A stretch of DNA of 64,000 bases, taken from Microcella alkalica. Lineage in GTDB: Bacteria > Actinomycetota > Actinomycetes > Actinomycetales > Microbacteriaceae. The position numbers and the translations under genes are program-made. The notes beneath the pieces were generated by a model. The model searched no databases, was not told where the DNA came from, and saw only the letters and a program-made list of their open reading frames with translations. Location of the stretch: positions 124,001-188,000 of the forward strand of contig NZ_JACGWX010000001.1 of assembly GCF_014137945.1 (NCBI RefSeq), in the 5' to 3' direction. Below are positions 6,069 through 60,333 of the stretch, piece after piece (the first letter of the stretch is position 1; each line of letters starts with the position of its first letter).

Positions 6069-6110
6069 CCCGGCCATCCCGGCGCCCCCGGATCGAGCCG
6101 CGTCGACCAA

Positions 6111-6184
6111 ATGAAGGGAGCGGCGGCCCTGGCGACGGCGTGTCGTGTGCGACACGCCGCTGCGCAGGGTGTCCCGCCCTTCAT
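6111..6184. repeat. Long interrupted palindrome between convergent genes
   Basis: Between the ends of gltX and the cytochrome gene, the outer arms ATGAAGGG (6111-6118) and CCCTTCAT (6177-6184) are perfect complements. An inner 9-bp perfect stem, GGCGTGTCG (6137-6145) with CGACACGCC (6150-6158), has a TGTG loop, and CCCT/AGGG pair in between. It could act as a two-way transcription terminator although no T-run follows, or be a REP-like element. Confidence 0.6.
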
Positions 6185-6228
6185 GTGGGACGACCCCGTC
6201 GCGTTGCGGCCGGAACGCCCGAGGTCGG

Positions 6229-44827: not shown

Positions 44828-45868
44828 GTGAGCACGATGACGAGCCCGATCCCCGATTCGCACCCGCACGCCGATCAGCCCCGAACCGCCCAGCCACTCG
44901 ACGCGGATGCGTTCGCCGGGTACGGCGACGCGATCCGCCGCGCGATGAACGGCGTGCTCGACGGCAAGCCCGAGGCCGTCGACACTGCGCTCACCGTGCT
45001 GCTCGCCGAGGGCCACCTGCTCATCGAGGACGTCCCCGGCGTCGGCAAGACCGTGCTCGCTCGCGCGCTCGCGCGCTGCATCGCCGGCAGCGTCAGCCGC
45101 ATCCAGTTCACTCCCGACCTGCTGCCCGCCGACATCACGGGCGTGAGCGTCTACCGCCAGCAGCAGGGCGTCTTCGAGTTCACGCCCGGCCCCGTCTTCG
45201 CCCACATCGTCATCGGCGACGAGATCAACCGCGCGAGCCCGAAGACCCAGTCGGCGCTACTCGAGTGCATGGAGGAGGGGCAGGTCACCGTCGACGGCCG
45301 CACCCACCGCCTCGAGGCGCCGTTCCTCGTCGTCGCGACGCAGAACCCCGTCGAGATGGAGGGCACCTATCCGCTCCCCGAGGCGCAGCGCGACCGCTTC
45401 ATGGCCCGCATCTCGATCGGGTACCCGGATGCCGAGAGCGAGCAGCGCATGCTGCGCGACCGCGAGCACGGGTCGCCCCTCGATCGCCTCGACCCGATCG
45501 TCGACGTGGCGGGCCTGCGCCGCATGATCGCGACGGTCCGCGAGGTCTACGTGAGCCCCTCGGTCGAGGCGTACGCCGTGGCGATCGTGCAGGCCACGCG
45601 CGACGACACCGCGCTGCGCCTCGGGGCGAGCCCGCGCTCGACCCTGCAGCTCGTGCGCGCCGCCCGAGCCCGGGCCGCCCTCGACGGCCGCGACTTCGTC
45701 GTGCCCGACGACGTGGACGCGCTCGCGACGACGGTGCTCGCGCACCGGATGATCCTCGTGCCCCGGGCGCAGCATCCCGACGGCCGGCCCGTGCGCGGCG
45801 TCGAGGAGGTCGTCCAGCGCATCGTCGCCGCGACCCCCGTGCCGGTGCCGCAGGCGCCCCGCGCGTAG
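44828..45868 (+). CDS. MoxR family AAA+ ATPase
   Basis: A 346-residue AAA+ ATPase with Walker A EDVPGVGKTVLARAL, Walker B IVIGDEINRASPKTQSALLECMEE, sensor ATQNPVEMEGTYPLPEAQRDRF and the C-terminal lid (RAALDGRDFVVPDDVDALATTVLAHR). MoxR proteins act as chaperones that assemble or activate partner complexes, usually with DUF58 (vWA-like) proteins, as encoded next. GTG start. It begins an intact MoxR/DUF58/transglutaminase operon paralogous to the broken one at 17.2-20.7 kb. Confidence 0.94.
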   Translation: MSTMTSPIPDSHPHADQPRTAQPLDADAFAGYGDAIRRAMNGVLDGKPEAVDTALTVLLAEGHLLIEDVPGVGKTVLARALARCIAGSVSRIQFTPDLLPADITGVSVYRQQQGVFEFTPGPVFAHIVIGDEINRASPKTQSALLECMEEGQVTVDGRTHRLEAPFLVVATQNPVEMEGTYPLPEAQRDRFMARISIGYPDAESEQRMLRDREHGSPLDRLDPIVDVAGLRRMIATVREVYVSPSVEAYAVAIVQATRDDTALRLGASPRSTLQLVRAARARAALDGRDFVVPDDVDALATTVLAHRMILVPRAQHPDGRPVRGVEEVVQRIVAATPVPVPQAPRA

Positions 45869-45878
45869 GGCGCGGCTC

Positions 45879-47240
45879 ATGCGGGCACGGCGCGAGCGCG
45901 CGAGCGGAGGCCTCCCGAGGCTCACCGGACGCGGCTGGGGCTTCCTCGTCGTCGCCGCGAACCTGTTCGCGCTCGCGTACGGGCTGCAGCGCCCCGAGCT
46001 CGTGCCCGCCGCCGTCATCGCCGCCGCCGCGCCGCTCATCGCCCTGCTCGTCGTCGGCGCCTCCCGCCCGCGGGTGCGCGTCACCCGCCACCTCGACCCG
46101 GTCGTCGCGACCGAGGGCGAGCCCGTGCGCGTCGGCGTGCAGGTCTCCGGCCGCGCCCGCTCGGCCGAGTGGATCGAGCGCGTCCCCATGCGCCCCGGCT
46201 ACGCCGGCCCCGGCCAGCTGCTCGAGGTGCGCGCCGGCCGCCCGCGCTCGCTCGGCTACCGCTACTGGCCAGCGCATCGCGGCCTCGTGAGCGTCGGGCC
46301 GCTGCTCATCGAGGATCGCGACCCGTTCGCCCTCGCGGTGCGCGTCACCGACACGATCGCCGTCGCGACGCAGCTCGTCGTGCCCGAGGTCGTGCCGCTC
46401 TCGCCCGGACCGGTCCCGGATCCCTCCGCCGAGAGCGGCCCGCGCACGACGCGCTCGCGCGAGCGAACCGCCGACGACGTCGTGACGCGCGAGTACCGGC
46501 AGGGCGACGCGCTGCGCCGCGTCCACTGGAGGGTCTCGGCGCGCCAGGGCGAGCTCATGGTGCGGCAGGACGAGCCGCAGGCCGGGCCGCGAGCGCGCGT
46601 GCTCCTCGATTCGCAGCGGGCCGGGCATCCCGATCTCGCCCGCGTCGCGGCGGCCCCGCCGACCGGGTCGCGCACCTTCGAGTGGAGCGTGCGCATGACC
46701 GCCGCCGTTGCCTCGCACCTCGCCGAGCGCGGGTACGCCGTCGACCTGCAGACCCCGGCGGCGCGACCGGCGGAGGCTCCGCGCGGCGACGGACCGATCG
46801 GCGAGCTTCTCGGCGAGCTCGCCATCCTCCCGCTCGCCGACCGCGGGCCGCTGCCGCCCGCGACGGCCGCGCCCGGCTCGGTGCCGATCGTCGCGATCGC
46901 GAGCAGCCCCGACGATGCGACGCTGCGGTGGATGCTCGCCCAGCGCTCCGCGGGAGCCCTCGGCGTCGCCCTGCTCGTGCGATCGGCGTCGACCGCGGCC
47001 GACGACCCGGGCGCTCTCGCGATCGAGGCCGCCTTCGCCGCCGCCGACTGGAACGTCGTGACGGTGCCGGTGGGGACGCCGCCCGATGCCGCGTGGCTCG
47101 CGCTCGTCGGGCAGCAGCCCGAGCTCACGGGGGCCGAGGCGCTCGCGGCGCGGGTCGCGGGGTCGGGCGGCGGGGCCGCTATGTCGGCCTCGGTCGCCTC
47201 GTCTTCCGCCGCCGGGGCTTCAGGGGGCGCGCGTGGCTGA
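45879..47240 (+). CDS. DUF58 domain membrane protein
   Basis: A 453-residue protein: two N-terminal membrane helices (GWGFLVVAANLFALAYGLQ and a second), a beta-rich region (RVRVTRHLDPVVATEGEPVRVGVQV), then the DUF58 signature DVVTREYRQGDALRRVHWRVSARQGELMVRQDE and a C-terminal vWA-like part. Partner of MoxR; the pair is thought to help assemble envelope or secreted complexes, but the client is unknown. Starts 10 bp after moxR and overlaps the next gene by 8 bp. It is the full-length reference for the truncated copy at 17436-18332. Confidence 0.9.
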   Translation: MRARRERASGGLPRLTGRGWGFLVVAANLFALAYGLQRPELVPAAVIAAAAPLIALLVVGASRPRVRVTRHLDPVVATEGEPVRVGVQVSGRARSAEWIERVPMRPGYAGPGQLLEVRAGRPRSLGYRYWPAHRGLVSVGPLLIEDRDPFALAVRVTDTIAVATQLVVPEVVPLSPGPVPDPSAESGPRTTRSRERTADDVVTREYRQGDALRRVHWRVSARQGELMVRQDEPQAGPRARVLLDSQRAGHPDLARVAAAPPTGSRTFEWSVRMTAAVASHLAERGYAVDLQTPAARPAEAPRGDGPIGELLGELAILPLADRGPLPPATAAPGSVPIVAIASSPDDATLRWMLAQRSAGALGVALLVRSASTAADDPGALAIEAAFAAADWNVVTVPVGTPPDAAWLALVGQQPELTGAEALAARVAGSGGGAAMSASVASSSAAGASGGARG

Positions 47241-49608
47241 GACCGAGGGCCCGGGCCTGCGCCGGGCGGGGGCGCGCGCCGGCCGTGCGGCCCTCCTCGT
47301 CGCCCTCGCCGCCCTGCTCATGCTCGCCGCAGCGCTCACCGCCTTCACGGTCGTGCTCGACGAGGGGCCGTGGTTCGCGACCACGATGGTCGTCGTCGCG
47401 GTCGTCGTCGGGGCCGGGCTGATCGCACGCCTGCGCGTGCGGCGCTGGCGTCCTCTGTGGTCGGTCGTCGTGTCGAGCGCCGCGCTCGTCGTCGCGCTCA
47501 CCGCCGTGTTCGCGGCAGAGGTGTCGTTTGCCGTGGTGATCCCTACCCGCGAGACGTTCGAGCGCTTCGCCGAGCTCGTGGCGCTCGGGGAGCAGTCGAT
47601 CGCGGAGCAGTCGATTCCCGCGGAGGCCGACACGGGCATCCGCTTTCTGCTCGCCCTCGGCGTCGGAGCGATCGCGATCGCGACCGACGCGCTCGCCGCG
47701 CTCAGCCGACGGCCGGCGCTCGCCGCCGTGCCGGCGACGGGGATCCTCGCCGTGCCCGTCGTGCTCGACCCCGGGGCTCTGCCGCTGGCGACCGTCGCCG
47801 GGACGGCAGCCGCGTACCTCCTGCTGCTCGCGCTGCATCGTCCCGCCGCGAGCGGCGGCGGCCGCGGACTCACGCGCGCCGTCGCCGCGACCGCGGCCGT
47901 GATCGTCGCCGCGCTCGTCGTGCCGCCCGCCCTGCCGTCGGTGCTCGCCGGCGACCGGCTGCCCGGCTCGGGTCCTGCGGGGCTCGTCACAGGCATCAAC
48001 CCCGTCGTCGAGCTCGGCAACGACCTGCGCAGGCAGAACCCGATCACGGTGCTCACCTACACGACCGCTCTCGCGGGCGGGCAGTACCTGACGCTGTCGC
48101 ACCTCGCCGAGTTCTCCGGCCAAGAGGTGTTGCCGGTGCTGTTCGACGCGCCCGTCGAGGACGCCGGAACGATCGGCCCTCCCGCCTGGTTCGACGACGA
48201 CGTCGCGTTCACGAGCGTCGAGACGACCATCACGCTGCGCAGCGTGCGTTCGCGCTGGGTGCCGCTGCCGTCGGCGCCCGTGCAGGCCGACGGGCTCTCG
48301 GGCGGGTGGGTCATCGACCCCGACGGCGTCACGATGCGCACTGCCGAGGGGTCGATCCGGAACGGGACGTACACGGTCGAGAACCGGGTAGCGCGGCCGG
48401 CGCCCGAGCAGCTGCGTGCGACGACCGTGGACGCGGACGGGCTCGAACAGTACCGGGCGCTGCCAGAGGACCTCGACCCGGTCGTCGAGGCCACGGCGCG
48501 CGAGGTCGTCGCGGGAATCTCGAATCCGTACGAGCAGGCCGTCGCGCTGCAGCGCTTCTTCACCGACGGCGGCTTCACCTACTCGGAGGACGCCCCCGTC
48601 GCGGGCGGGTTCGACGGATCCGGTGCGGCGATCGTCGCGGCGTTCCTCGAGGCGCGGGCCGGGTACTGCGTGCACTTCGGCTCGGCGATGACGCTCATGG
48701 CGCGCACGCTCGGCATCCCCACGCGCATGGCCGTGGGATTCCTGCCGGGGTCGCGGAATCCGGTGATCCCGAGCGAGTACACCGTGTCGTCGGACGACCT
48801 GCACACATGGCCCGAGCTGCACTTCGACGGCATCGGGTGGGTGCGCTTCGAGCCGACCCCCTCGCGCGGCGTGACCCCCGACTACGCGACCGAGGAGGCC
48901 CTCACCCCCAGCGGCGCGCCCTCGCCCGACCCGTTCAGCCCGGAGCCGACCGAGCCGACCGCGACGGCCGCGCCGGGCGCGCCCTCGCCGGGGTCGTCCG
49001 GCGGGCCCGACCTCCCCGACGAGGAGATCGACGCGGGCGGGACCGGTTCGGGCGGCCTGCTCGGGGGTCGTTCGACGATCGGCGGCGTGGATGCCCGGCT
49101 CGTGCTCGGCCTCGCGCTCCTGCTGCTCGTCGCGCTACTCGCCGCGCCCGGAGTCTGGCGCGCCGTGCTGCGCGCGCGTCGACTGCGCTCGCCGGATCCG
49201 CTCGACGCCTGGCGCGAGCTGCGCGACACGGCCCGCGACCTGGGGCTCCCCGCCGAGGCGACCCGCACGCCGCGCGAGCTCGCCCGCGCATGGGCTGCGG
49301 CCGGCGGCGCCGCCAGCGGTGCGACGGGCGCTGGCGCCGCTCGAGCCCCCATCGCGGAGGCCCCCGTCGTCCCAGGCCCGACGGCCGAGGAGCTCGAGGT
49401 CTTCGAGGCCGTGCGCCGCGCACTGGAGGCGCGGGCCTACGGAGCGCCGGCGCCGGTGTCGGGCGCCTCGGACATCCGCCCCGCCCTGCGCGCCCTGCGC
49501 GCGCGGACGCCGTGGTGGCGTCAGGTGCTCGCGACAGCCTGGCCGCGCTCGCTCGCGTCGCTCGAGCCGCGCGACCCCGCCCTCGAGCTTCCCGCCACCC
49601 CCGCCTGA
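47233..49608 (+). CDS. Transglutaminase-like membrane protein (DUF3488/TgpA type)
   Basis: A 791-residue protein with about six to seven N-terminal membrane helices, an extracytoplasmic transglutaminase core and a further C-terminal helix (VLGLALLLLVALLAAPGVW) with a cytosolic tail. The active-site motifs are intact: ARAGYCVHFGSAMTLMARTLGIPTRMAVGF (Cys479) and DDLHTWPELHFDGIGWVRFEPTPS (His524). Family members crosslink or hydrolyse peptide amides at the cell surface; the substrate here is unknown. A Pro/Ser/Thr-rich linker (EPTEPTATAAPGAPSPGSSG) precedes the last helix. Overlaps DUF58 by 8 bp. Paralogue of the broken copy at 18329-20740. Confidence 0.92.
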   Translation: MAETEGPGLRRAGARAGRAALLVALAALLMLAAALTAFTVVLDEGPWFATTMVVVAVVVGAGLIARLRVRRWRPLWSVVVSSAALVVALTAVFAAEVSFAVVIPTRETFERFAELVALGEQSIAEQSIPAEADTGIRFLLALGVGAIAIATDALAALSRRPALAAVPATGILAVPVVLDPGALPLATVAGTAAAYLLLLALHRPAASGGGRGLTRAVAATAAVIVAALVVPPALPSVLAGDRLPGSGPAGLVTGINPVVELGNDLRRQNPITVLTYTTALAGGQYLTLSHLAEFSGQEVLPVLFDAPVEDAGTIGPPAWFDDDVAFTSVETTITLRSVRSRWVPLPSAPVQADGLSGGWVIDPDGVTMRTAEGSIRNGTYTVENRVARPAPEQLRATTVDADGLEQYRALPEDLDPVVEATAREVVAGISNPYEQAVALQRFFTDGGFTYSEDAPVAGGFDGSGAAIVAAFLEARAGYCVHFGSAMTLMARTLGIPTRMAVGFLPGSRNPVIPSEYTVSSDDLHTWPELHFDGIGWVRFEPTPSRGVTPDYATEEALTPSGAPSPDPFSPEPTEPTATAAPGAPSPGSSGGPDLPDEEIDAGGTGSGGLLGGRSTIGGVDARLVLGLALLLLVALLAAPGVWRAVLRARRLRSPDPLDAWRELRDTARDLGLPAEATRTPRELARAWAAAGGAASGATGAGAARAPIAEAPVVPGPTAEELEVFEAVRRALEARAYGAPAPVSGASDIRPALRALRARTPWWRQVLATAWPRSLASLEPRDPALELPATPA

Positions 49609-49645
49609 CGCCCGGCCTGCTGCCCGTCAACCTCGCTAGGACCCC

Positions 49646-49732
49646 TTGCCAATTGCAGGCACAACTGCACGCTGCCACCACGGCCGCCCGGCAGCGGGGG
49701 CCCCGGCCCTGGTTTGTGCCTGCACCTGGCAA
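49646..49732. repeat. Bipartite inverted-end element, copy 1 (87 bp)
   Basis: Left end TTGCCAATTGCAGGCACAA (49646-49664) and right end TTTGTGCCTGCACCTGGCAA (49713-49732) are inverted copies. Copies 2 (50663-50748) and 3 (54897-54983) have the same ends and size but unrelated interiors. Copies 1 and 2 flank the DUF559 gene remnant. Confidence 0.78.
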
Positions 49733-49796
49733 TGACAGTCGCACGACGAACAGTCGACCGGAGGTACGGATCAGGCGGTCCCCGCCGAAAGGCGAC

Positions 49797-50569
49797 TCAG
49801 CGGTGATGATCGCCGCGACTGATCGCCGCGAGCACAGCGGCTTCGACAGCCGGCCAGTCGTGCATGACCTGCGCGTAGCTGAACCTGAGAACGCGATACC
49901 CGCGACGCGAGAGCTCGGCATCGCGGCGTCGATCGTTCTCGAAAGCGCTCGCCGTGTCGTGGAACTCTCGCCGATCGACTTCCACGACGAGCGCCGCCCC
50001 GATCAGGAAGTCGACCCGGCCAACGCCGGCGATGAGCACCTGGCACTGCAGCTTCGGCGTTCGACCCGCCATGCGCAACCGGAAGAGCGTTTCTGTTCCT
50101 GACTCGCAAACGCCGTCGATGCCATCGCGCCCGACTGGGTGTCCTCGGGCCGCCAGTTCCACGTGAAGTGAGGGCGCGACATGAAGGGCCGAGTCGAGCG
50201 ACGCGAGATACAACTCGCGCGGCTGGCATTCACGCAGAGCAGTCAGAGCGTCGACCGGCGCCGCGCATCGCCGGGGGTTCGGAGTCGGGATGCTCCGTGC
50301 CCGACGAGGACATGGAGTCGGTGATCGTCGACGGCCCAGATCCCGTGAGTGCGAAGCGCCGTCGCGCAACTGATGACGCCGCCGATACGCGTCGCGTGCA
50401 CCGCCTCCCTCGCGAGGTCGGGCCGGGCGAACCATCCCTGGCGAACGCGTCTGAGCACCCCGCGCCGCACCAAAGCGGCCACTCCGCCTCGGGTGAACCC
50501 GTGCGCATACAGCTCGTGCGTTGCCAGGAGACCGCCATGTTCCTCGAGAAGTCGGTGAAGATCGAGCAC
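49797..50569 (-). pseudogene. wHTH (AbiEi-type) plus DUF559 endonuclease-like protein, disrupted
   Basis: The N-terminal half reads LDLHRLLEEHGGLLATHELYAHGFTRGGVAALVRRGVLRRVRQGWFARP, a winged-helix domain of the AbiEi antitoxin type, to about 50270 (GHGASRLRTPG). The C-terminal half, in another frame (VDALTALRECQPRELYLASLDSALHVAP), carries a DUF559 domain related to Vsr endonucleases (VGRVDFLIGAALVVEVDRREFHDTASAFENDRRRDAEL and the final RVLRFSYAQVM). About 20-30 residues that normally lie between are missing, so a deletion with frame change is likely. The start is uncertain; GTG at 50569 was used. Function of the intact family is not established; it is flanked by two inverted-end elements. 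Confidence 0.75.
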
Positions 50570-50662
50570 GGTGTCACCGTGCGCCACCGCCACCGTCGAC
50601 TGTCGCGCGATCGGAACTCTGGTGGTGGCGACGGCGGCCCGGAGAGCTGTGGAGGGACTGCG

Positions 50663-50748
50663 TTGCCAGATGCAGGCGCAGCAGGCGGATCCGCGGGCAC
50701 AGGCCTGAGCCATCGTGAACAAACGGTGACGGTGCCTGCATTTGGCAA
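50663..50748. repeat. Bipartite inverted-end element, copy 2 (86 bp)
   Basis: Left end TTGCCAGATGCAGGCGCA (50663-50680), right end GGTGCCTGCATTTGGCAA (50731-50748). Same ends and spacing as copies 1 and 3. It lies upstream of the DUF559 gene remnant and downstream of ybaK's 3' end. Confidence 0.78.
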
Positions 50749-50797
50749 CGACACCACGGGCTGGGAGCTCCGAGGGGGACGGCCGTCGGGTCGGCCG

Positions 50798-51292
50798 CTA
50801 CTGCGCGATGTCGCCGAGCACCCCGCCGGTCGCGCGCAGCAGGTCGGCGGGCGCGAGCTCGAGGTCGAAGCCGCGCCGACCCCCCGACACGAGCACGGTC
50901 TCCCACAGTGCCGCGCTCTCGTCGATGACCGTCGGCAGAGCCGTCTTCTGCCCGATGGGCGAGATGCCGCCGACGACGTACCCGGTCTTGCGCTCGGCGA
51001 GCTCGGGCGCCGCCATTGCCGCCCGCTTCGCTCCGACGGCCGATGCGAGCGCCTTCAGGTCGAGCTTCGCGCTCACCGGCACGACTCCGACCACGAGCCG
51101 CCCGTCGGCTTCAGCGAGCAGCGTCTTGAACACGCGCACCGGCTCGACGCCGAGCGCCGCCGCCGCTTCGAGCCCGTACGCGGTGACCGATGCGTCGTGC
51201 GCGTACGCCCGCGGCGTGAACGGGATGCCCGCGGCCGTCAGCGCGACCGTCGCCGGAGTCCCCGGCGCGGCCTGCGATCGCGGCCTAGCCAT
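50798..51292 (-). CDS. ybaK: Cys-tRNA(Pro)/Cys-tRNA(Cys) deacylase (YbaK/EbsC)
   Basis: A 164-residue trans-editing protein that hydrolyses mischarged Cys-tRNA(Pro). The YbaK motif GGISPIGQKTALPTVIDES carries the catalytic lysine, preceded by VFKTLLAEADGRLVVGVVPVSAKLDLKALA. Fold and length are standard. The ATG at 51292 overlaps the glgX stop by 8 nt, so it is translationally coupled to glgX, an unrelated pathway. Confidence 0.93.
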   Translation of the reverse strand: MARPRSQAAPGTPATVALTAAGIPFTPRAYAHDASVTAYGLEAAAALGVEPVRVFKTLLAEADGRLVVGVVPVSAKLDLKALASAVGAKRAAMAAPELAERKTGYVVGGISPIGQKTALPTVIDESAALWETVLVSGGRRGFDLELAPADLLRATGGVLGDIAQ

Positions 51293-53432
51293 CCCCGTGG
51301 TCCGAGTACTCGGGGCCGTCCGCCGACACGACCCCCGGCCCACCGCTGCCCGGCCCCGCGACGGGCCCGCCGTGCGCCCGGAACAGCAGCATCGACGCCG
51401 GTTCGACGCACAGCCGCTCGCCCGGAACATGCGACGGCTGGAGCCCGGAGATGTCGTCGTGCGAGCTGTCCCACAGCAGCGTGTACCCGGTGACGCCGAC
51501 GTGCGAGGGCAGCGTGACCTCGACCGATTCCTCGAGCCCGTGCACGATGAGCAGCACGCGGTTGAACGCCTCGAACTCGGGGGTCGAGGCGGCGAGGTAC
51601 TGCAGGGTGCGCTCCTGCGGAGAGTCCCAGTCGAGCATCGTCATCGACCGGCCCTCCTTGTTGTACCAGTCCATCTGGGTGGCGCTCGGCACGGTCTCGC
51701 CCCACTTGCCGTACCGCACGGGTCGCAGCGCGGGGTTCTCCCGCCGCAGCGCGAGCAGTCGCGCCGTCACGCGCTGCAGGTCCTCCTGCCACCCGGCGCG
51801 ATCCCACGAGTGCCAGGTGAGCTCGCTGTCGTGACAGTAGGCGTTGTTGTTGCCGCGCTGGCTGCGGCCCCATTCGTCTCCCGCGGTGATCATGGGGATG
51901 CCCGCGCTGAGCAGCAGGGTCCCCATGAGGTTCCGCATGGCCTTGCGCCGGTCGGCGATCACGCGCTGATCGTCGGTGGGGCCTTCGATGCCGAAGCTGT
52001 ACGACCGGTTGCTGTCGGTGCCGTCGCGGTTGCCCTCACCGTTGCCGAGGTTGTGCTTGCGGTCGTAGGCGGTCAGGTCAGCGAGGGTGAATCCGTCGTG
52101 GGCGGTGATGAAGTTGACGCTCGCGAGGGGCCCGCGCTCGGCGGCGAACACGTGGGCGGAGCCGGTCATGCGTCGGGCGAGCGAGCCGATTCCTTCGGGC
52201 GCGGAGCCGGCGTGACGGGCGGCCGCGGCATCCGTCAGCCAGAAGTTGCGGGCGCGGTCGCGGAATCCGTCGTTCCACTCCGAGTACCCGGCGGGGAAGT
52301 TGCCGACCTGCCAGCCGCCGAGCCCGACATCCCACGGCTCGGCGATCATCTTGACGCCCTGCAGCGTCGGGTCGTCGAGGATCGCTCTCAGCAGAGGGTG
52401 GTCGGGGTCGTAGTGGGCGCGCCGGTCGCGGCCGAGGGTGGCCATGAGGTCGAAGCGGAACCCGTCGACCTGCACCTCGTCGGCCCAGTACCGCAGCGAG
52501 TCGAGGACGAGCCGCTGCGCGGCGGGGAGGGAGAAGTCGACGGTGTTGCCGCACCCGGTCGTGTCGATGTACGCGCCGTCGGGGGTGTGCCGGTAGTAGG
52601 AGGCGTTGTCGATGCCGCGGAGGCTCGAGGTGGGGCCATCGAGTCCCTCCTCGGAGGTGTGGTTGTAGACGACGTCGAGGACGACTTCGAGCCCGGCCTC
52701 GTGCAGCAGGCGCACCATGCCCTTGAACTCGCGGAGGACGGCTCCGGTGCCGCCGAACTGCGCCTGTCGGGTGGCGTACGCGGCGTGCGGGGTGAAGAAG
52801 TTGAGGGTGTTGTAGCCCCAGTAGTTGGTGAGGCCCTGCTTGATGAGGCGCTGCTCGCTGATGCTCTGGTGCACGGGCAGCAGCTGCACGGTCGTGACGC
52901 CGAGGTCTTTCAGGTACGCGATCGTCGTGGGATGGGCGAGGCCGGCGTAGGTGCCGCGCAGCTCCTCGGGCATGGCCGGGTTGAGCTTCGTGAGTCCTCT
53001 GACGTGCGTCTCGTAGAGCACCGTGTGGTCGAGGGGGATGCCCGGCTTGACCACTCCGCCCCAGTCGAAGTCGTCGTCCTGCACGTACGAGCGCCACTCA
53101 CCGCTCGTCGTGCGGGCGAGGCCGCGCGCGTACGGGTCGATGAGGTGCCGGTGCGGGCCGAAGTCGTGGATCGGCCCGTCCGGCCCGTCGACGCGGATCG
53201 AGTAACGCGCGCCGACCCGCAGGTCGGGGTGCTCGGCGCTCCAGACGTGGTGGCGGTTGGGCCGCATCTCGACGGTCTGGGCGACCCAGTTGGCGTCGTC
53301 GGGGTCGAAGAGGCAGAGCTCCATGCGGGTGGCGTGTCGGCTGTAGACCCGCAGTCGGCCGCCGTGGGCCGTGGGGGTCACGCCGAGGTGGCCCAGGTGG
53401 CCGTGGGGGCCCGGGGCGTCGGCGCGAATCAT
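51285..53432 (-). CDS. glgX: Glycogen debranching enzyme
   Basis: A 715-residue GH13 isoamylase-type enzyme cutting alpha-1,6 branches in glycogen. An N-terminal CBM48 (SRHATRMELCLFDPDDANWVAQTVEM) is followed by the barrel with DGFRFDLMATLGR (nucleophile Asp), KMIAEPWDVG (acid/base Glu) and NFITAHDGFTLADL (His-Asp), then AGDEWGRSQRGNNNAYC. TAGCCT (53444-53439) lies 6 nt before the ATG: leaderless. It is divergent from a cysteine desulfurase gene. All catalytic residues appear present. Confidence 0.95.
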   Translation of the reverse strand: MIRADAPGPHGHLGHLGVTPTAHGGRLRVYSRHATRMELCLFDPDDANWVAQTVEMRPNRHHVWSAEHPDLRVGARYSIRVDGPDGPIHDFGPHRHLIDPYARGLARTTSGEWRSYVQDDDFDWGGVVKPGIPLDHTVLYETHVRGLTKLNPAMPEELRGTYAGLAHPTTIAYLKDLGVTTVQLLPVHQSISEQRLIKQGLTNYWGYNTLNFFTPHAAYATRQAQFGGTGAVLREFKGMVRLLHEAGLEVVLDVVYNHTSEEGLDGPTSSLRGIDNASYYRHTPDGAYIDTTGCGNTVDFSLPAAQRLVLDSLRYWADEVQVDGFRFDLMATLGRDRRAHYDPDHPLLRAILDDPTLQGVKMIAEPWDVGLGGWQVGNFPAGYSEWNDGFRDRARNFWLTDAAAARHAGSAPEGIGSLARRMTGSAHVFAAERGPLASVNFITAHDGFTLADLTAYDRKHNLGNGEGNRDGTDSNRSYSFGIEGPTDDQRVIADRRKAMRNLMGTLLLSAGIPMITAGDEWGRSQRGNNNAYCHDSELTWHSWDRAGWQEDLQRVTARLLALRRENPALRPVRYGKWGETVPSATQMDWYNKEGRSMTMLDWDSPQERTLQYLAASTPEFEAFNRVLLIVHGLEESVEVTLPSHVGVTGYTLLWDSSHDDISGLQPSHVPGERLCVEPASMLLFRAHGGPVAGPGSGGPGVVSADGPEYSDHGDG

Positions 53433-53543
53433 GGACTTAGGCTAGGCGACAGCAGCCCGCGCACCCTGCCCGCACGCCGTGCGACGGGTGCGGGCGACGC
53501 GCCGTCGCCGCCGTCGCCGTCGTCGCAGCAGAGAGGGGATGCC

Positions 53544-54839
53544 GTGGTCGTCTATCTCGATCACGCCGCCGGTTCTCCGATGCCGGCCTCCATCCGCGGC
53601 GCTTACCTGTCGGCGCTCGAGCACGTCGGCAACCCGTCGTCGATCCACTCGGCGGGGCAGGCCGCGCGCGGCATGCTCGAGGATGCCCGCGAGCGCCTCG
53701 CCGCGACCCTCGGCGTCGACGCGGTCGAGGTGGTGCTCACGGGCGGCGGCACCGAGGCCGTGAACCTCGGGGTGAAGGGGCTGTTCTGGCAGCGGCAGGG
53801 CGGGGCGCTGACCGGCCTCGCCGCGTCACCCGCCGCTGGCGCCGCGCCCGACCGCGACGCCCGCCCACGCCCGCGCATCCTCGTCCCGCGCGCCGAGCAC
53901 CACGCGACGCTCGACGCCGTCGAGTGGCTCGCCGCCCACGAGGGCGCCGAGCTGCGCTGGCTCGAGGTCGACGAGGTCGGCGCGCTGCGGCTCGACGACC
54001 TCGAAGCGGCACTGGGGGAGGCCGACAACGTCGCCCTCCTCACGATGCTCGCCGCCAACAACGAGGTCGGAACCCTCCAGCCCGTCGCGGAGGCCGCGGC
54101 GCTCGCCGCCGTCCACGGCATTCCCGTGCACGTCGACGCGATCGCCGCCTACGGGCAGATCCCGCTCGAACCGCTGCCACCGGGGGTGTCGGCCGTGTCG
54201 CTCTCGGCCCACAAGATCGGCGGACCCGTCGGCGTCGGGGCTCTCGTGCTGCGCCGCGGCGCCGACGTCGTTCCGCTGCTGCACGGCGGCTCGCAGCAGC
54301 GCGGCCGCTCCGGAACGATGGATGCCGCGGGAGCGGCCGTCTTCGCCGCAGCCTCCGATGAGGCCCACGCCGCGATCGCGGAGCGCGCCGCCCGCAAGGC
54401 GCAGCTGCGCGACCGCCTGGCGGCGGGCATCCTGGCTGCTCTGCCGCAGGTCGGGCTGCGCGGCGCCGCGGGCCGCGCAGCCGCTGCGCGCGCGGCCGGC
54501 CGCGATGCCGAGGCCGCGCCGTGGGCCGCGCGCGCCCTGCCCGGAACGCTGCACCTGACCGTGCCGGGGGCCGAGGGCGACTCACTGCTGATGCTGCTCG
54601 ACCTCGCGGGATTCGCGGTCTCCACGGGCTCGGCGTGCCAGGCCGGGGTGCCGGAGCCGAGCCACGTGCTGCTCGCGATGGGCCTCGACGAGCAGACCGC
54701 GCGCGGTGCGCTGCGCGTGTCGCTCGGGCCCGAGACGACCGAGGTGGAGGTCGATGCTCTGCTCGCGGCCCTCCCGGCGGCGGTCGAGCGCGCCACGTCG
54801 GCGGGTCTTGCGGCGCGCATGCCGACCCTCGGGCGCTAG
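53544..54839 (+). CDS. Cysteine desulfurase (NifS/IscS family)
   Basis: A 431-residue PLP enzyme taking sulfur from cysteine. It starts VVVYLDHAAGSPMPASIRGAYLSALEHVGNPSSIHSAGQAAR. The histidine region is VPRAEHHATLDAVEW, the PLP lysine Lys224 lies in SLSAHKIGGPVGVG, and the persulfide Cys365 in VSTGSACQAGVPEPSHVL. An Ala/Arg-rich insert (GRAAAARAAGRDAEAAP) precedes the last domain. The GTG has GAGAGGGG 5 nt upstream. The next gene is mnmA, so it likely supplies persulfide for tRNA 2-thiolation, the usual arrangement in actinobacteria. Confidence 0.94.
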   Translation: MVVYLDHAAGSPMPASIRGAYLSALEHVGNPSSIHSAGQAARGMLEDARERLAATLGVDAVEVVLTGGGTEAVNLGVKGLFWQRQGGALTGLAASPAAGAAPDRDARPRPRILVPRAEHHATLDAVEWLAAHEGAELRWLEVDEVGALRLDDLEAALGEADNVALLTMLAANNEVGTLQPVAEAAALAAVHGIPVHVDAIAAYGQIPLEPLPPGVSAVSLSAHKIGGPVGVGALVLRRGADVVPLLHGGSQQRGRSGTMDAAGAAVFAAASDEAHAAIAERAARKAQLRDRLAAGILAALPQVGLRGAAGRAAAARAAGRDAEAAPWAARALPGTLHLTVPGAEGDSLLMLLDLAGFAVSTGSACQAGVPEPSHVLLAMGLDEQTARGALRVSLGPETTEVEVDALLAALPAAVERATSAGLAARMPTLGR

Positions 54840-54896
54840 TCACGCGGCGGCGCCCGCACCGCCGATCTCCCGCTGCCCGGTTCTGCGTCGACACCA

Positions 54897-54983
54897 TTGC
54901 CAAATGCAGGCACCGGCCGCGGCGTCGCCCGGATTCGCGCGGGACGACCCTTTGTCTATGCGTCCACTGCCTGCATTTGGCAT
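54897..54983. repeat. Bipartite inverted-end element, copy 3 (87 bp)
   Basis: Left end TTGCCAAATGCAGGCACC (54897-54914), right end ACTGCCTGCATTTGGCAT (54966-54983), in the 190-bp gap between the desulfurase gene and mnmA. Ends match copies 1 and 2, interior does not. Confidence 0.78.
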
Positions 54984-55032
54984 CGACCCTGCGCGACCAG
55001 TCAGCCCCGACGACCGCGCGTACCCTTGACGG

Positions 55033-56229
55033 GTGCGAGTTCTGGCAGCGATGAGCGGTGGCGTCGACAGCGCCGTCGCCGCGGCGCGCGCGGTCGACGC
55101 GGGCCACGACGTCGTCGGCGTGCACCTCGCGCTGAGCCGCATGCCCGGCACGCTGCGCACTGGCAGCCGCGGCTGCTGCACGATCGAGGACAGCCTCGAT
55201 GCCCGTCGCGCGGCTGATCTGCTGGGCATCCCGTTCTACGTGTGGGATTTCTCCGAGCGCTTCCGCGCCGACGTCGTCGACGACTTCATCGCCGAGTACG
55301 CCGCCGGCCGCACCCCGAACCCGTGCATGCGCTGCAACGAGCGCATCAAGTTCGCCGCCGTGCTCGAGAAGGCCCTCGCCCTCGGCTTCGACGCCGTGGC
55401 GACGGGCCACTACGCGCACATCGTCACCGACGAGCAGGGCAATCGCGAGCTCCACCGCGCGAGTGACGAGGCCAAGGACCAGTCGTACGTCCTCGGCGTC
55501 CTCACGACCGAGCAGCTCGCGCACGCGATGTTCCCGCTCGGCACGACCCCGTCGAAGGCGGTCGTGCGCGCCGAGGCGGCCGCGCGCGGGCTCACGGTCG
55601 CCCAGAAGCCCGACAGCCACGACATCTGCTTCATCCCCGACGGCGACACGCGCGGCTGGCTCGCCGGCCGCATCGAGCCGCAGCACGGCAGCATCGTCGA
55701 CCGCGCCGGCATCCCCGTCGGCGAGCACGACGGAGCCACGAGCTTCACGGTCGGCCAGCGCCGCGGCCTCAACCTCGGAGTCCCCGCCCCCGACGGACGC
55801 CCGCGCTTCGTCCTCGAGGTGCGCCCGCGCACGAACGAGGTCGTCGTCGGGCCGAAGGAAGCCCTCGCGATCCGCGAGCTCGCCGGCGCCCGCGTCTCGT
55901 GGGCGGGCCTCGACCCGGTCGCGAGCGGGCTCACCCGCGTGACCGCTGAGGGGGATGCCTGGGCCCCGTTCCCGTGCGAGGTGCAGGTGCGCGCGCACGC
56001 CGACCCGGTCGCGGCGACGGCCCGGCTGGCGCCGAGCGCCCCGCCCGCCCCCGGGGCCGCCCCGGGCGCCGCCGGAGCAGCGGGCGCCGCCGAGCTCGTC
56101 GTCGAGGTCGACGAGCCCCTGTTCGGGGTGGCTCCCGGGCAGACCGCCGTGCTCTACTCGGGAACGCGCGTGCTGGGTCAGTGCACGATCGACCGCACCG
56201 TGAGCGCCGTCCCGGCCACAGCATCCTGA
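55033..56229 (+). CDS. mnmA: tRNA-specific 2-thiouridylase
   Basis: A 398-residue PP-loop enzyme that thiolates U34 of Lys, Glu and Gln tRNAs. The ATP motif is [16 protein letters not shown]; the catalytic cysteines are Cys98 in [13 protein letters not shown] and Cys199 in [17 protein letters not shown] and [16 protein letters not shown] are also typical. A Pro/Ala/Gly low-complexity insert ([18 protein letters not shown]) sits in the C-terminal beta-barrel. GTG start 6 nt after TACCCT (55021-55026): leaderless. The upstream cysteine desulfurase is the likely sulfur donor. Confidence 0.96.
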
Positions 56230-56269
56230 CCGGACCTGTCCGGACCGGACCGGACCTGTCCGGAGCGGA
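56230..56269. repeat. Two tandem 20-bp palindromic units after mnmA
   Basis: CCGGACCTGTCCGGACCGGA (56230-56249) is followed by CCGGACCTGTCCGGAGCGGA (56250-56269), one mismatch. Each contains the inverted repeat TCCGGA/TCCGGA, so a two-hairpin terminator for mnmA or a protein site are possible. Confidence 0.75.
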
Positions 56270-56331
56270 CCGCGCCCGAGCCCCGCGCCGCAACCCCCGG
56301 TCGCCCGTCAGTGGTCGCTCCTAGACTCTGA

Positions 56332-58635
<2,304 letters not shown>

Positions 58636-58748
58636 GCGCGCGGCGTCGTAGAACGTTCTGTTTCGGCACCAACTCCGACCCTCGCGAACCCCTTTGACCA
58701 CTCCAGTCACACGGGCAACAACCCTGGATTTCCGCGGATTCTCGGCCC

Positions 58749-58774
58749 GCGTGTCCTCCTTTTTGTGGACACGC
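58749..58774. terminator. Hairpin downstream of ligA
   Basis: GCGTGTCC (58749-58756) pairs with GGACACGC (58767-58774) around TCCTTTTTGT. It lies in the 279-bp gap 58636-58914. The rest of that gap holds TAGCAT (58843-58848, possible -10) and a second hairpin, CCCCGGTTCGGGG within TCAGT/ACTGA arms (58859-58893), in the leader of the next gene. No small gene was seen. Confidence 0.6.
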
Positions 58775-58914
58775 ATACGGCACAGGTGGTGAACATTGCG
58801 GACGAATCCCAATGAGACCCCCCGATCAGAGGGCATTTCCCCTAGCATGAAAACGCGTCAGTCGACCCCGGTTCGGGGTTGTCCCCCACTGATGCCCTAG
58901 AGGGGAACCCGACC

Positions 58915-60333
58915 TTGCTGCTTGAGGCAACGGCAGTTCTGCTGGCCTCGTTGACCGTCGCGACGGTCACGGGGCCCGCCAGCATGCCCCGCTCGAGCGC
59001 CGTCCCGCACTCCGTCACGATCGAGGCGCCCAACTCGATGCGCGTCGTCGACACCGTGATCGGAGGCGTCGATCCCTCGTCCCCGCAGATCGTCGACGCC
59101 GCAGCTGTGAGCGTTCCCGCACTGCGCACGGCCCGCCCGCTCGCCGAGCTGGCCTCCCTCGGCGGCACGAGCCTCCTGCGCGAGCTCGCCGCGACCTCGC
59201 CCGCGACCGTCGCGACGCTCGCCGACCGCCACCCCGATACCGTTCGGCAACTGCTCTCGTCGCCGCCTGCACCGAGACTCGTCGAGAGCTGGTGGCGCAA
59301 CCTCGATTCGCGCGCGCAGCTCTCGCTCGCAGCATCCGCACCGGAGCTCGTCGGCAACCTCGACGGCGTTCCCTTCGCCACCCGTAACCACGCGAACCGC
59401 AGCGTGCTGCGCGACACCATCCGCGATCTGGAGCTGAGCCTCGTCGGCGAGACGAGCCGCGCGCTCGCGACGCAGAGCAACGAGCGCCTGCAGATGCTCT
59501 ACTCCGTCGCCGACGCGCTCGGCCCGTCGACCGCGAACCCGCAGCGCCAGCTCATCACCCTCGACACCGAGGGGGCGGGCAAGGCCGCGATCGTGCTCGG
59601 CGACCTGCAGACCGCCGACTACGTCAGCTACCTCGTCCCCGGGATGTTCATCAGCGTCGGCGGCAACATCGTCGAGTGGACGGACACCGCCGCCCGCCTC
59701 TACGACGAGCAGGTGGCCTGGCTCAACCTCCTCGCCGACGTCGGCGCCGAGCCCGAGACCCGGACCGTCGCGACCGTGGCGTGGATCGGCTACCAGACCC
59801 CGCACCTTCTCAACGTCGGCAGCCTCGACCTCGCCTACGAGGGCCGCGACGCGATCAGCGACGCCCTCATCGGACTCGAGACGCTGCGCCGCAACGACCA
59901 GCCGCACGTGAGCCTGCTCGCCCACTCGTACGGCTCCACCGCGGCGATGCTAGCCCTGACCGAGACCGAGGCCTCGGTCGACTCGCTCGCGATGATCGGC
60001 TCGCCCGGCTCGCCCGTCACGACGGCCGAGGAGCTGCACGTGCGCGGCGCGGTCTTCGTCGGCGAGGCGGCGTGGGATCCGATCTCGAACAGCTCCTTCT
60101 TCGGCGGCGACCCCGGATCGAGCGACTTCGGCGCGGCCGCGATGAGCGTGCGCGGCGGCATCGACGTCGTCACCAACCAGGTCCTCGTCGGCTCGACCGG
60201 CCACAACGAGTACTTCAGCCCCGGCACCGAGGCGATGCGCAACATGGCGCTCGTCGGCATCGACAAGGCCGAACTCGTCACCGACGGCACCGAGCGCGAC
60301 AGCGGTCGCACCCTCGCCCTCGCGCTCGACTGA
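58915..60333 (+). CDS. DUF1023-type alpha/beta hydrolase, probably exported
   Basis: A 472-residue protein. The N-terminus is hydrophobic (LLEATAVLLASLTVATVTGPASMP), like a signal or anchor. A helical region follows, then an alpha/beta hydrolase of the DUF1023 family with the nucleophile elbow VSLLAHSYGSTAAML and a C-terminal HNEYF histidine. The TTG at 58915 was chosen for the AGGGGAA 8 nt upstream. Substrate unknown; related actinobacterial proteins are secreted or cell-wall-linked. A structured leader with a stable hairpin precedes it. Confidence 0.85.
   Translation: MLLEATAVLLASLTVATVTGPASMPRSSAVPHSVTIEAPNSMRVVDTVIGGVDPSSPQIVDAAAVSVPALRTARPLAELASLGGTSLLRELAATSPATVATLADRHPDTVRQLLSSPPAPRLVESWWRNLDSRAQLSLAASAPELVGNLDGVPFATRNHANRSVLRDTIRDLELSLVGETSRALATQSNERLQMLYSVADALGPSTANPQRQLITLDTEGAGKAAIVLGDLQTADYVSYLVPGMFISVGGNIVEWTDTAARLYDEQVAWLNLLADVGAEPETRTVATVAWIGYQTPHLLNVGSLDLAYEGRDAISDALIGLETLRRNDQPHVSLLAHSYGSTAAMLALTETEASVDSLAMIGSPGSPVTTAEELHVRGAVFVGEAAWDPISNSSFFGGDPGSSDFGAAAMSVRGGIDVVTNQVLVGSTGHNEYFSPGTEAMRNMALVGIDKAELVTDGTERDSGRTLALALD

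Follow-up and report, generated by a model that had tools for sequence, protein, structure and literature searches.

The closest described counterparts of the elements analysed here are the REPINs, and in Pseudomonas fluorescens SBW25 the GI REPINs consist of two conserved inverse 16-mers 71 bp apart, as described in passages of PMC3116915. In TIRtrons, long inverted repeats lie on both sides of the gene of a Y1 transposase (TIRYT), and some of them are also present elsewhere; REPs measure 20-40 bp, and CGTC REPs have no known enzyme, their units being reported not to flank transposase genes, according to PMC3733652. Two groups of proteins are also relevant. I-Bth0305I, an EDxHD enzyme among the Vsr-like homing endonucleases, forms a dimer on its very long target, which measures nearly 60 bp (passages of PMC3943268), and AbiEi proteins, the type IV antitoxins, bind inverted repeats and thereby regulate their own expression (PMC7319586). 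In addition, VsrA of Caulobacter is a protein with DUF559, a Pfam domain of unknown function that is Vsr-like; it is reported to be tied to a solitary cytosine methylase and to repair, and palindromes are not mentioned in the passages of PMC12907096 that describe it.

Our study analysed a window of 64,000 nucleotides (C1:124001-188000 of a 2.74 Mb genome, G000) with three palindromic elements, two of which bracket a DUF559 gene (Table 1). The window is matched at 90.8% over an 8 kb stretch of a Microcella sp. assembly, which suggests a Microcella-like actinobacterium (family Microbacteriaceae) as its source. Like REPtrons (REPIN-RAYT systems), the elements have inverted conserved ends of about 16 bp at a constant distance, 71-72 bp between the first residues of the end 16-mers, as well as a less conserved spacer, a predicted hairpin, an extragenic location, and an adjoining enzyme gene with its own repeat type. 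Unlike REPtrons, the enzyme is DUF559/AbiEi-like and not a Y1 HUH transposase, there is no constant GTAG or CGTC tag, the arms are non-complementary and of fixed length, and some families carry a central palindrome. REPIN-RAYT membership is ruled out by the lack of a constant tag and of a Y1 transposase, since the RAYT profile (PF01797) matched in 0 of 10 genomes at E 0.001, the same search having matched in 5 of 14 named control genomes. An enzyme gene between inverted repeats that also occur elsewhere is shared with the TIRtrons, which differ in their Y1 enzyme and in the length of REPs; the CGTC REPs, for which no enzyme is known, differ in not flanking transposase genes. The nuclease domain is related by sequence to that of the EDxHD homing endonucleases, but here it is encoded by a standalone chromosomal gene, situated between two copies of its putative site and with further copies scattered, and not by an intron or intein gene; relative to the AbiEi antitoxins, the winged-helix N-terminus is similar and a C-terminal nuclease domain replaces the antitoxicity domain. 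The pairing of palindromes with a DUF559 gene, found here in a family of actinobacteria, is apparently undescribed: no link between the two was found in the literature searched, where subscription papers lay mostly outside the scope, and a search with the motif returned no related paper by title.

Table 1. Features of the window, with positions counted from its first nucleotide.
Feature	Position	Strand	Remarks
Element 1, palindromic, 87 bp, TTGCCAATTGCAGGC .. GCCTGCACCTGGCAA	49646..49732		past the 3' end of the nuclease gene
C-terminal gene piece, DUF559 (PF04480) nuclease domain	49797..50435	-	65% identity over 162 aa to a full-length homologue
N-terminal gene piece, other frame, homology from about 50569	50243..50722	-	63% identity to the same homologue, in its N-terminal part, over 105 aa
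Element 2, 86 bp	50663..50748		upstream of the nuclease gene, which it brackets with element 1
Element 3, solitary, 87 bp	54897..54983		between NifS-like cysteine desulfurase and MnmA-like genes (named by inspection)
AAG element, ACCAAATGAAGGGAGC end type, central CGGCGTGTCG..CGACACGCCG palindrome	6106..6189		right end with 4 mismatches

The original prediction gave the coordinates and lengths of the three elements correctly, and its description of conserved inverted ends with dissimilar interiors is borne out for all of them; it overlooked that two of the three bracket a nuclease gene and that such genes have end sequences of their own. The right end of element 3 deviates at its outermost base, and the genes around this element are tandem by the listed ORFs. 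Within the window, TTGCCANNTGCAGGC with 0-1 mismatch is found at these six ends only, and at 3 mismatches there are 17 matches, near chance (mean 11.8). A search of window positions 45000-60000 against the Rfam RNA families gave 0 matches at gathering score.

We named the end type of these three elements CAG. Genome-wide, TTGCCANNTGCAGGC with at most one mismatch gave 16 matches (0 for the reversed pattern), and a paired search for TGCAGG..CCTGCA at 46-74 bp gave 27 places (4 for the reversed pattern), 11 of which we counted as elements. This count rests on the flanking bases: 10 of the 11 show the strict GCC..GGC form, and the remaining one (C3:150278) has ACC..GGT. The checks proposed for the prediction thus yielded 11 CAG elements in the whole genome, a constant span of 84 or 85 bp between the TGCC and GGCA positions in every one of them, and the absence of some elements at orthologous loci of sister species. 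The strict paired pattern had no match in five other species of the same genus; in the family sample it was found in 8 of 299 genomes, several of them with single, perhaps chance, matches. GTDB contigs provided three stretches from two assemblies, and viral contigs 0. It is important to note that Microcella assembly G299, which is perhaps incomplete, keeps a CAG-type element, and that its sole DUF559 hit (L148) has other ends. At L123:10940-10985, the end of a CAG element is repeated in tandem alongside it (CGGCATTCGGCATTCGGCACCCGGCA), and a similar end tandem is found at L312.

The claim that the interiors share nothing holds for the three copies in the window and fails for three CAG copies elsewhere (C3:135039, C3:150278, and C4:155866), which have in common a CGGCGTGTCG..CGACACGCCG palindrome at their centre, in the first of them in degenerate form. 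This palindrome occurs nine times in the genome (0 for the reversed control), and seven of the nine sit in elements of another end type, AAG, which has its own bracketed DUF559 gene in this genome on contig C11 (L166). A further type, GCA (TGCGCAACTCAGGA..), is present with more mismatches, and in the sampled 464 kb all three GCA elements have a CAG copy no more than about 200 bp away, a biased count because some of these stretches were picked for their CAG/AAG content. In G074 the GCA family is intact, with five elements and 0-1 mismatch per end; in G000, where the gene at that locus has other ends, it shows more wear, with three elements and 0-2 mismatches per end. The CAG and GTG end types were each found, in the stretches sampled from four genomes, only in the genome having that gene.

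The anatomy of the elements was examined in three families. In 14 AAG elements from G000 and G074, an end of 16 bp is followed by an arm of about 14 bp and a central half-palindrome of 10 bp, and then by the mirror image. The AAG arms are non-complementary (pairing of 0.29 within elements and 0.35 between them), as are those of the 11 CAG copies (0.24 and 0.32), and in G048 the arms pair below chance (0.30 vs 0.38, with 0.9987 of shuffles reaching the observed value), perhaps because long perfect palindromes are unstable; a hidden stem in the arms is therefore ruled out. All 20 G048 copies are exactly 89 bp long, and the outer 16 positions of their 40 arms each show one base in at least 97%. 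Their interiors have a median identity of 0.45 in the better of two orientations, against a shuffled expectation of 0.38, with 5 of 190 pairs above 0.6. Interiors are mostly unrelated in G000 and G048 and common to many copies in G029. Of the 30 G029 copies examined, 18 have an interior that recurs on other contigs, but within a larger dispersed repeated unit, for which reason they are not evidence of the palindrome moving alone. At L304-L319 in G029, this larger repeat carries one to three palindromes each and is spread over several contigs. The adjacent G048 elements L320:1011 and L320:1174 share the same right interior and differ in the left arm; such a mosaic may point to copies having exchanged sequence. 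By inspection, a GTAG tag at the repeat end is absent from the CAG, GCA, and AAG families, and CGTC occurs at an end in some AAG copies only, most having GGTC there. Insertion into pre-existing terminator stems was rejected: the G048 flanks looked complementary, yet their element-specific pairing is not above that of shuffles (p 0.06 in G048 and 0.74-0.99 in AAG, CAG, and G029). A de novo scan for 16-bp inverted repeats of whatever sequence was also discarded, as the GC-rich background dominates it (117 hits in 464 kb of G000).

The gene between elements 1 and 2 is split into two frames in the window's genome. Since the palindrome family of the window is well kept, this loss may be recent. At the same locus of two sister species, the DUF559 gene lies between two GCA elements (G074) and between two elements with TGCACAAATGCAGGA-type ends (G137). 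The intact proteins that we scanned are of 282-305 aa. Their N-terminus is an AbiEi-type winged helix by sequence similarity, with a PADLOC AbiEi match in 4 of 4 proteins (E 0.01 or better) and Pfam AbiEi_4 above its cut-off in one of nine proteins and below it in another; NCBIfam gave no match among four proteins. Their C-terminus is DUF559/MTES_1575 by PF04480 profile match, and the solved relatives of this domain are 3hrl (E 1.3e-8) and 3r3p, a 'Mobile intron protein' (E 5e-6) that we take to be I-Bth0305I. Residues E192, D219, E229, H236, D243, R246, and D247 are invariant in 11 of 11 aligned proteins and would be compatible with a site of the EDxHD type. Against 3r3p, however, alanine stands opposite both the D of VDF and the H, and the alignment does not extend to the first E; against 3hrl, D, E, and D align and the H column is not kept. 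Plasmid and phage collections gave 4 and 1 records, respectively, with weak protein matches.

DUF559 (PF04480) was found in 63 of 90 genomes searched in the bacterial family. Special attention was given to whether bracketing is general, using the 60 loci that head the list once G000, G074, and G037 are set aside (35 genomes by hand count, 6 kb on each side), which are the best-scoring ones and not a random draw, one flank being cut by a contig end. Matching palindromes bracket 28 of these 60 loci (18 genomes by hand count) and 74 of 1074 control anchors taken from the same stretches (Fisher p 1.4e-15); with a strict cut-off of at least eight shared 8-mers, the counts are 21/60 and 0/1074. By this test, 32 of the 60 genes are unbracketed. 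The distances from the middle of the domain match are clustered, at 114-338 bp for the nearer element and 688-892 bp for the farther one. A first version of the test was too loose (32/60 loci but 240/716 control anchors); the tighter cut-offs were chosen after seeing that result, and the test was then repeated at three stringencies. Among the first 23 DUF559 loci, from 10 genomes mostly chosen because elements were present in them, the scan scored 10 as pairs, to which inspection by eye added L147; L150 and L157, both of the window's genome, had no pair in the first scan. When the cut-offs were changed, 40 of 83 loci were flagged, among them L144, L157, and L162 but not L147 and L160. By eye, bracketed genes are widely spread in a tree of the domain and seemingly rare in two clades. 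A sample outside the family, drawn from the whole phylum, gave three flagged loci out of 28, of which L282 and L287 look real and L267 was discounted as AT-rich.

The ends follow the gene. DUF559 genes of many genomes have the same layout with different ends. The pattern GAAATGCAGG..CCTGCATTTC has 20, 4, and 34 copies (bracketing copies counted) in three genomes where it forms the ends around a DUF559 gene, occurs once in 17 other genomes, and has 0 matches for the reversed control in all 20. In a set of 39 bracketed loci, the more alike the proteins, the more alike the ends (Spearman 0.36 for the C-terminal and 0.32 for the N-terminal part, Mantel p 0.0005), the ends having been transcribed by hand from program output.

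Comparison of orthologous sites separates the parts of the element. At two sites, the ends (25/28 and 29/32 identical), the centre (20/20 twice), and the length are kept, and the arms have diverged (10/34 and 14/28 identical). One site shows opposite decay, with an intact CAG and a worn GCA element in G000 and the reverse in G074, which fits upkeep by the cognate gene at this one site. The elements at L118:8022 and L118:16511 and element 3 are absent in G074; the spacer of element 3, between flanking alignments, measures 166 bp in the window vs 10 bp in G074. Of L120:16784, the left end alone was found in G074, and no clear orthologous site was found for L117:17370 and L119:7746. No target-site duplication was seen where the sister species lacks an element, these sites not being clean. 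In G189, the nifS-mnmA spacer, where element 3 lies in the window, holds a palindrome with other ends (L103:2606-2693), and in G235 it has an apparent palindrome remnant (L100); different families may reuse the same intergenic sites. Also in G189, about 2.8 kb separate the mnmA alignment from that of the next gene (L103:3841-6634), compared with about 0.2 kb in the window. According to a crude gene caller, 19 of 20 G048 copies are intergenic (11 convergent, 7 tandem, 1 divergent, and 1 overlapping an ORF), as are 18 of 20 in G000 (11 convergent, 3 tandem, 4 divergent, and 2 overlapping an ORF); the caller is error-prone, for it placed element 3 between divergent genes, though they are tandem by ORFs.

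We consider a chromosomal system of two parts the probable explanation (about 0.6), with the palindromes as its DNA part and, as its protein part, the AbiEi-like winged-helix/DUF559 (Vsr-like) nuclease encoded between copies. Bracketing, gene-specific ends, scattered copies with the same ends, fixed length, and conservation of ends and centre at two sites are best read as a REPIN-like system built on an unrelated nuclease, which, we infer, recognises the ends and moves the palindromes. Both ideas of the original prediction hold in part. A bipartite protein-binding or processing site agrees with ends kept at fixed spacing in CAG, in G048, and at the orthologous sites; a REP-like mobile element with a fast-changing interior agrees with the copy number, the absence at some orthologous sites, and the intergenic placement, but the type of enzyme is unlike that of known REPs. 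Considering the dimer of I-Bth0305I on its long target and the binding of inverted repeats by AbiEi, the protein would span the element as a dimer, in which each winged-helix domain would read one end of about 16 bp and the two nuclease domains would be brought to the middle. Because they would meet there, the arms would matter for length only. Cutting or nicking at the middle could then lead to copying of the palindrome into new intergenic sites, and might also keep it intact, as RAYTs are thought to do for REPINs. If the cognate gene were lost or its specificity changed, its palindromes would decay and those of the new specificity would take over.

Some of these observations could also be explained by operator or architectural sites, at which an AbiEi-like protein binds the palindromes and controls its own and other genes or shapes the chromosome, selection keeping ends and spacing with no protein-driven movement. 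The autoregulation of AbiEi antitoxins through inverted repeats (PMC7319586), the two orthologous sites with conserved ends and centre, and the strict length of G048 copies all suit this explanation. It is, however, difficult to reconcile with the few copies between divergent genes (1/20 in G048 and 4/20 in G000, crude caller), the second copy downstream of the own gene, the presence or absence of copies between sister species, and nuclease-type residues that are invariant in 11 proteins, and we regard it as unlikely.

There is only a slim chance, in our estimation, that the elements are transcript-ending or stabilising hairpins, or else REP/MITE-like repeats that an unrelated transposase moves, in which case the DUF559 gene would be a passenger or a favoured target. 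The ends accompany and covary with the neighbouring nuclease gene, the layout is kept with different ends in the DUF559 genes of many genomes, no Y1 transposase matched in 10 of 10 genomes (PF01797 and PF04480 being the profiles searched genome-wide), and the variable arms of G048 pair below chance, unlike a terminator stem, all of which speaks against it; in its favour is the intergenic and often convergent placement that the elements have in common with REPs (PMC3733652). Slimmer still is the chance of protective or decoy sites, by which the palindromes would soak up, or mark against, a harmful nuclease and the host would keep enough of them while the gene is present, in an addiction-like manner: upkeep of a family does seem tied to its cognate gene, but the family of the window persists though its gene is broken.

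This persistence of a well-kept CAG family beside a broken gene we also counted against the two-part system, together with the following: no movement has been observed, the empty sites are neither clean nor marked by a target duplication, G299, perhaps incomplete, keeps a CAG-type element beside a sole DUF559 hit that has other ends, 32 of 60 loci are unbracketed by our test, 18 of the 30 G029 copies belong to a larger unit, and the D and H columns do not match in 3r3p, nor the H column in 3hrl.

There is about an even chance, in our view, that this system represents a new class of genomic replicator, in which a dedicated nuclease of the Vsr-like DUF559 type, equipped with an AbiEi-type DNA reader, would copy and maintain short palindromes with gene-specific ends. 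It would be an analogue of REPIN-RAYT with unrelated chemistry, in which each nuclease lineage would have its own palindrome alphabet and changes in specificity would leave fossil families behind. If true, the partner DNA of AbiEi-like proteins with a DUF559 domain could be read off the genome beside the gene, making their specificity testable, and the many pairs of genes and ends would be a ready set for learning how winged-helix nucleases choose their sites; the REPIN way of life would then have arisen with a second, unrelated type of enzyme.
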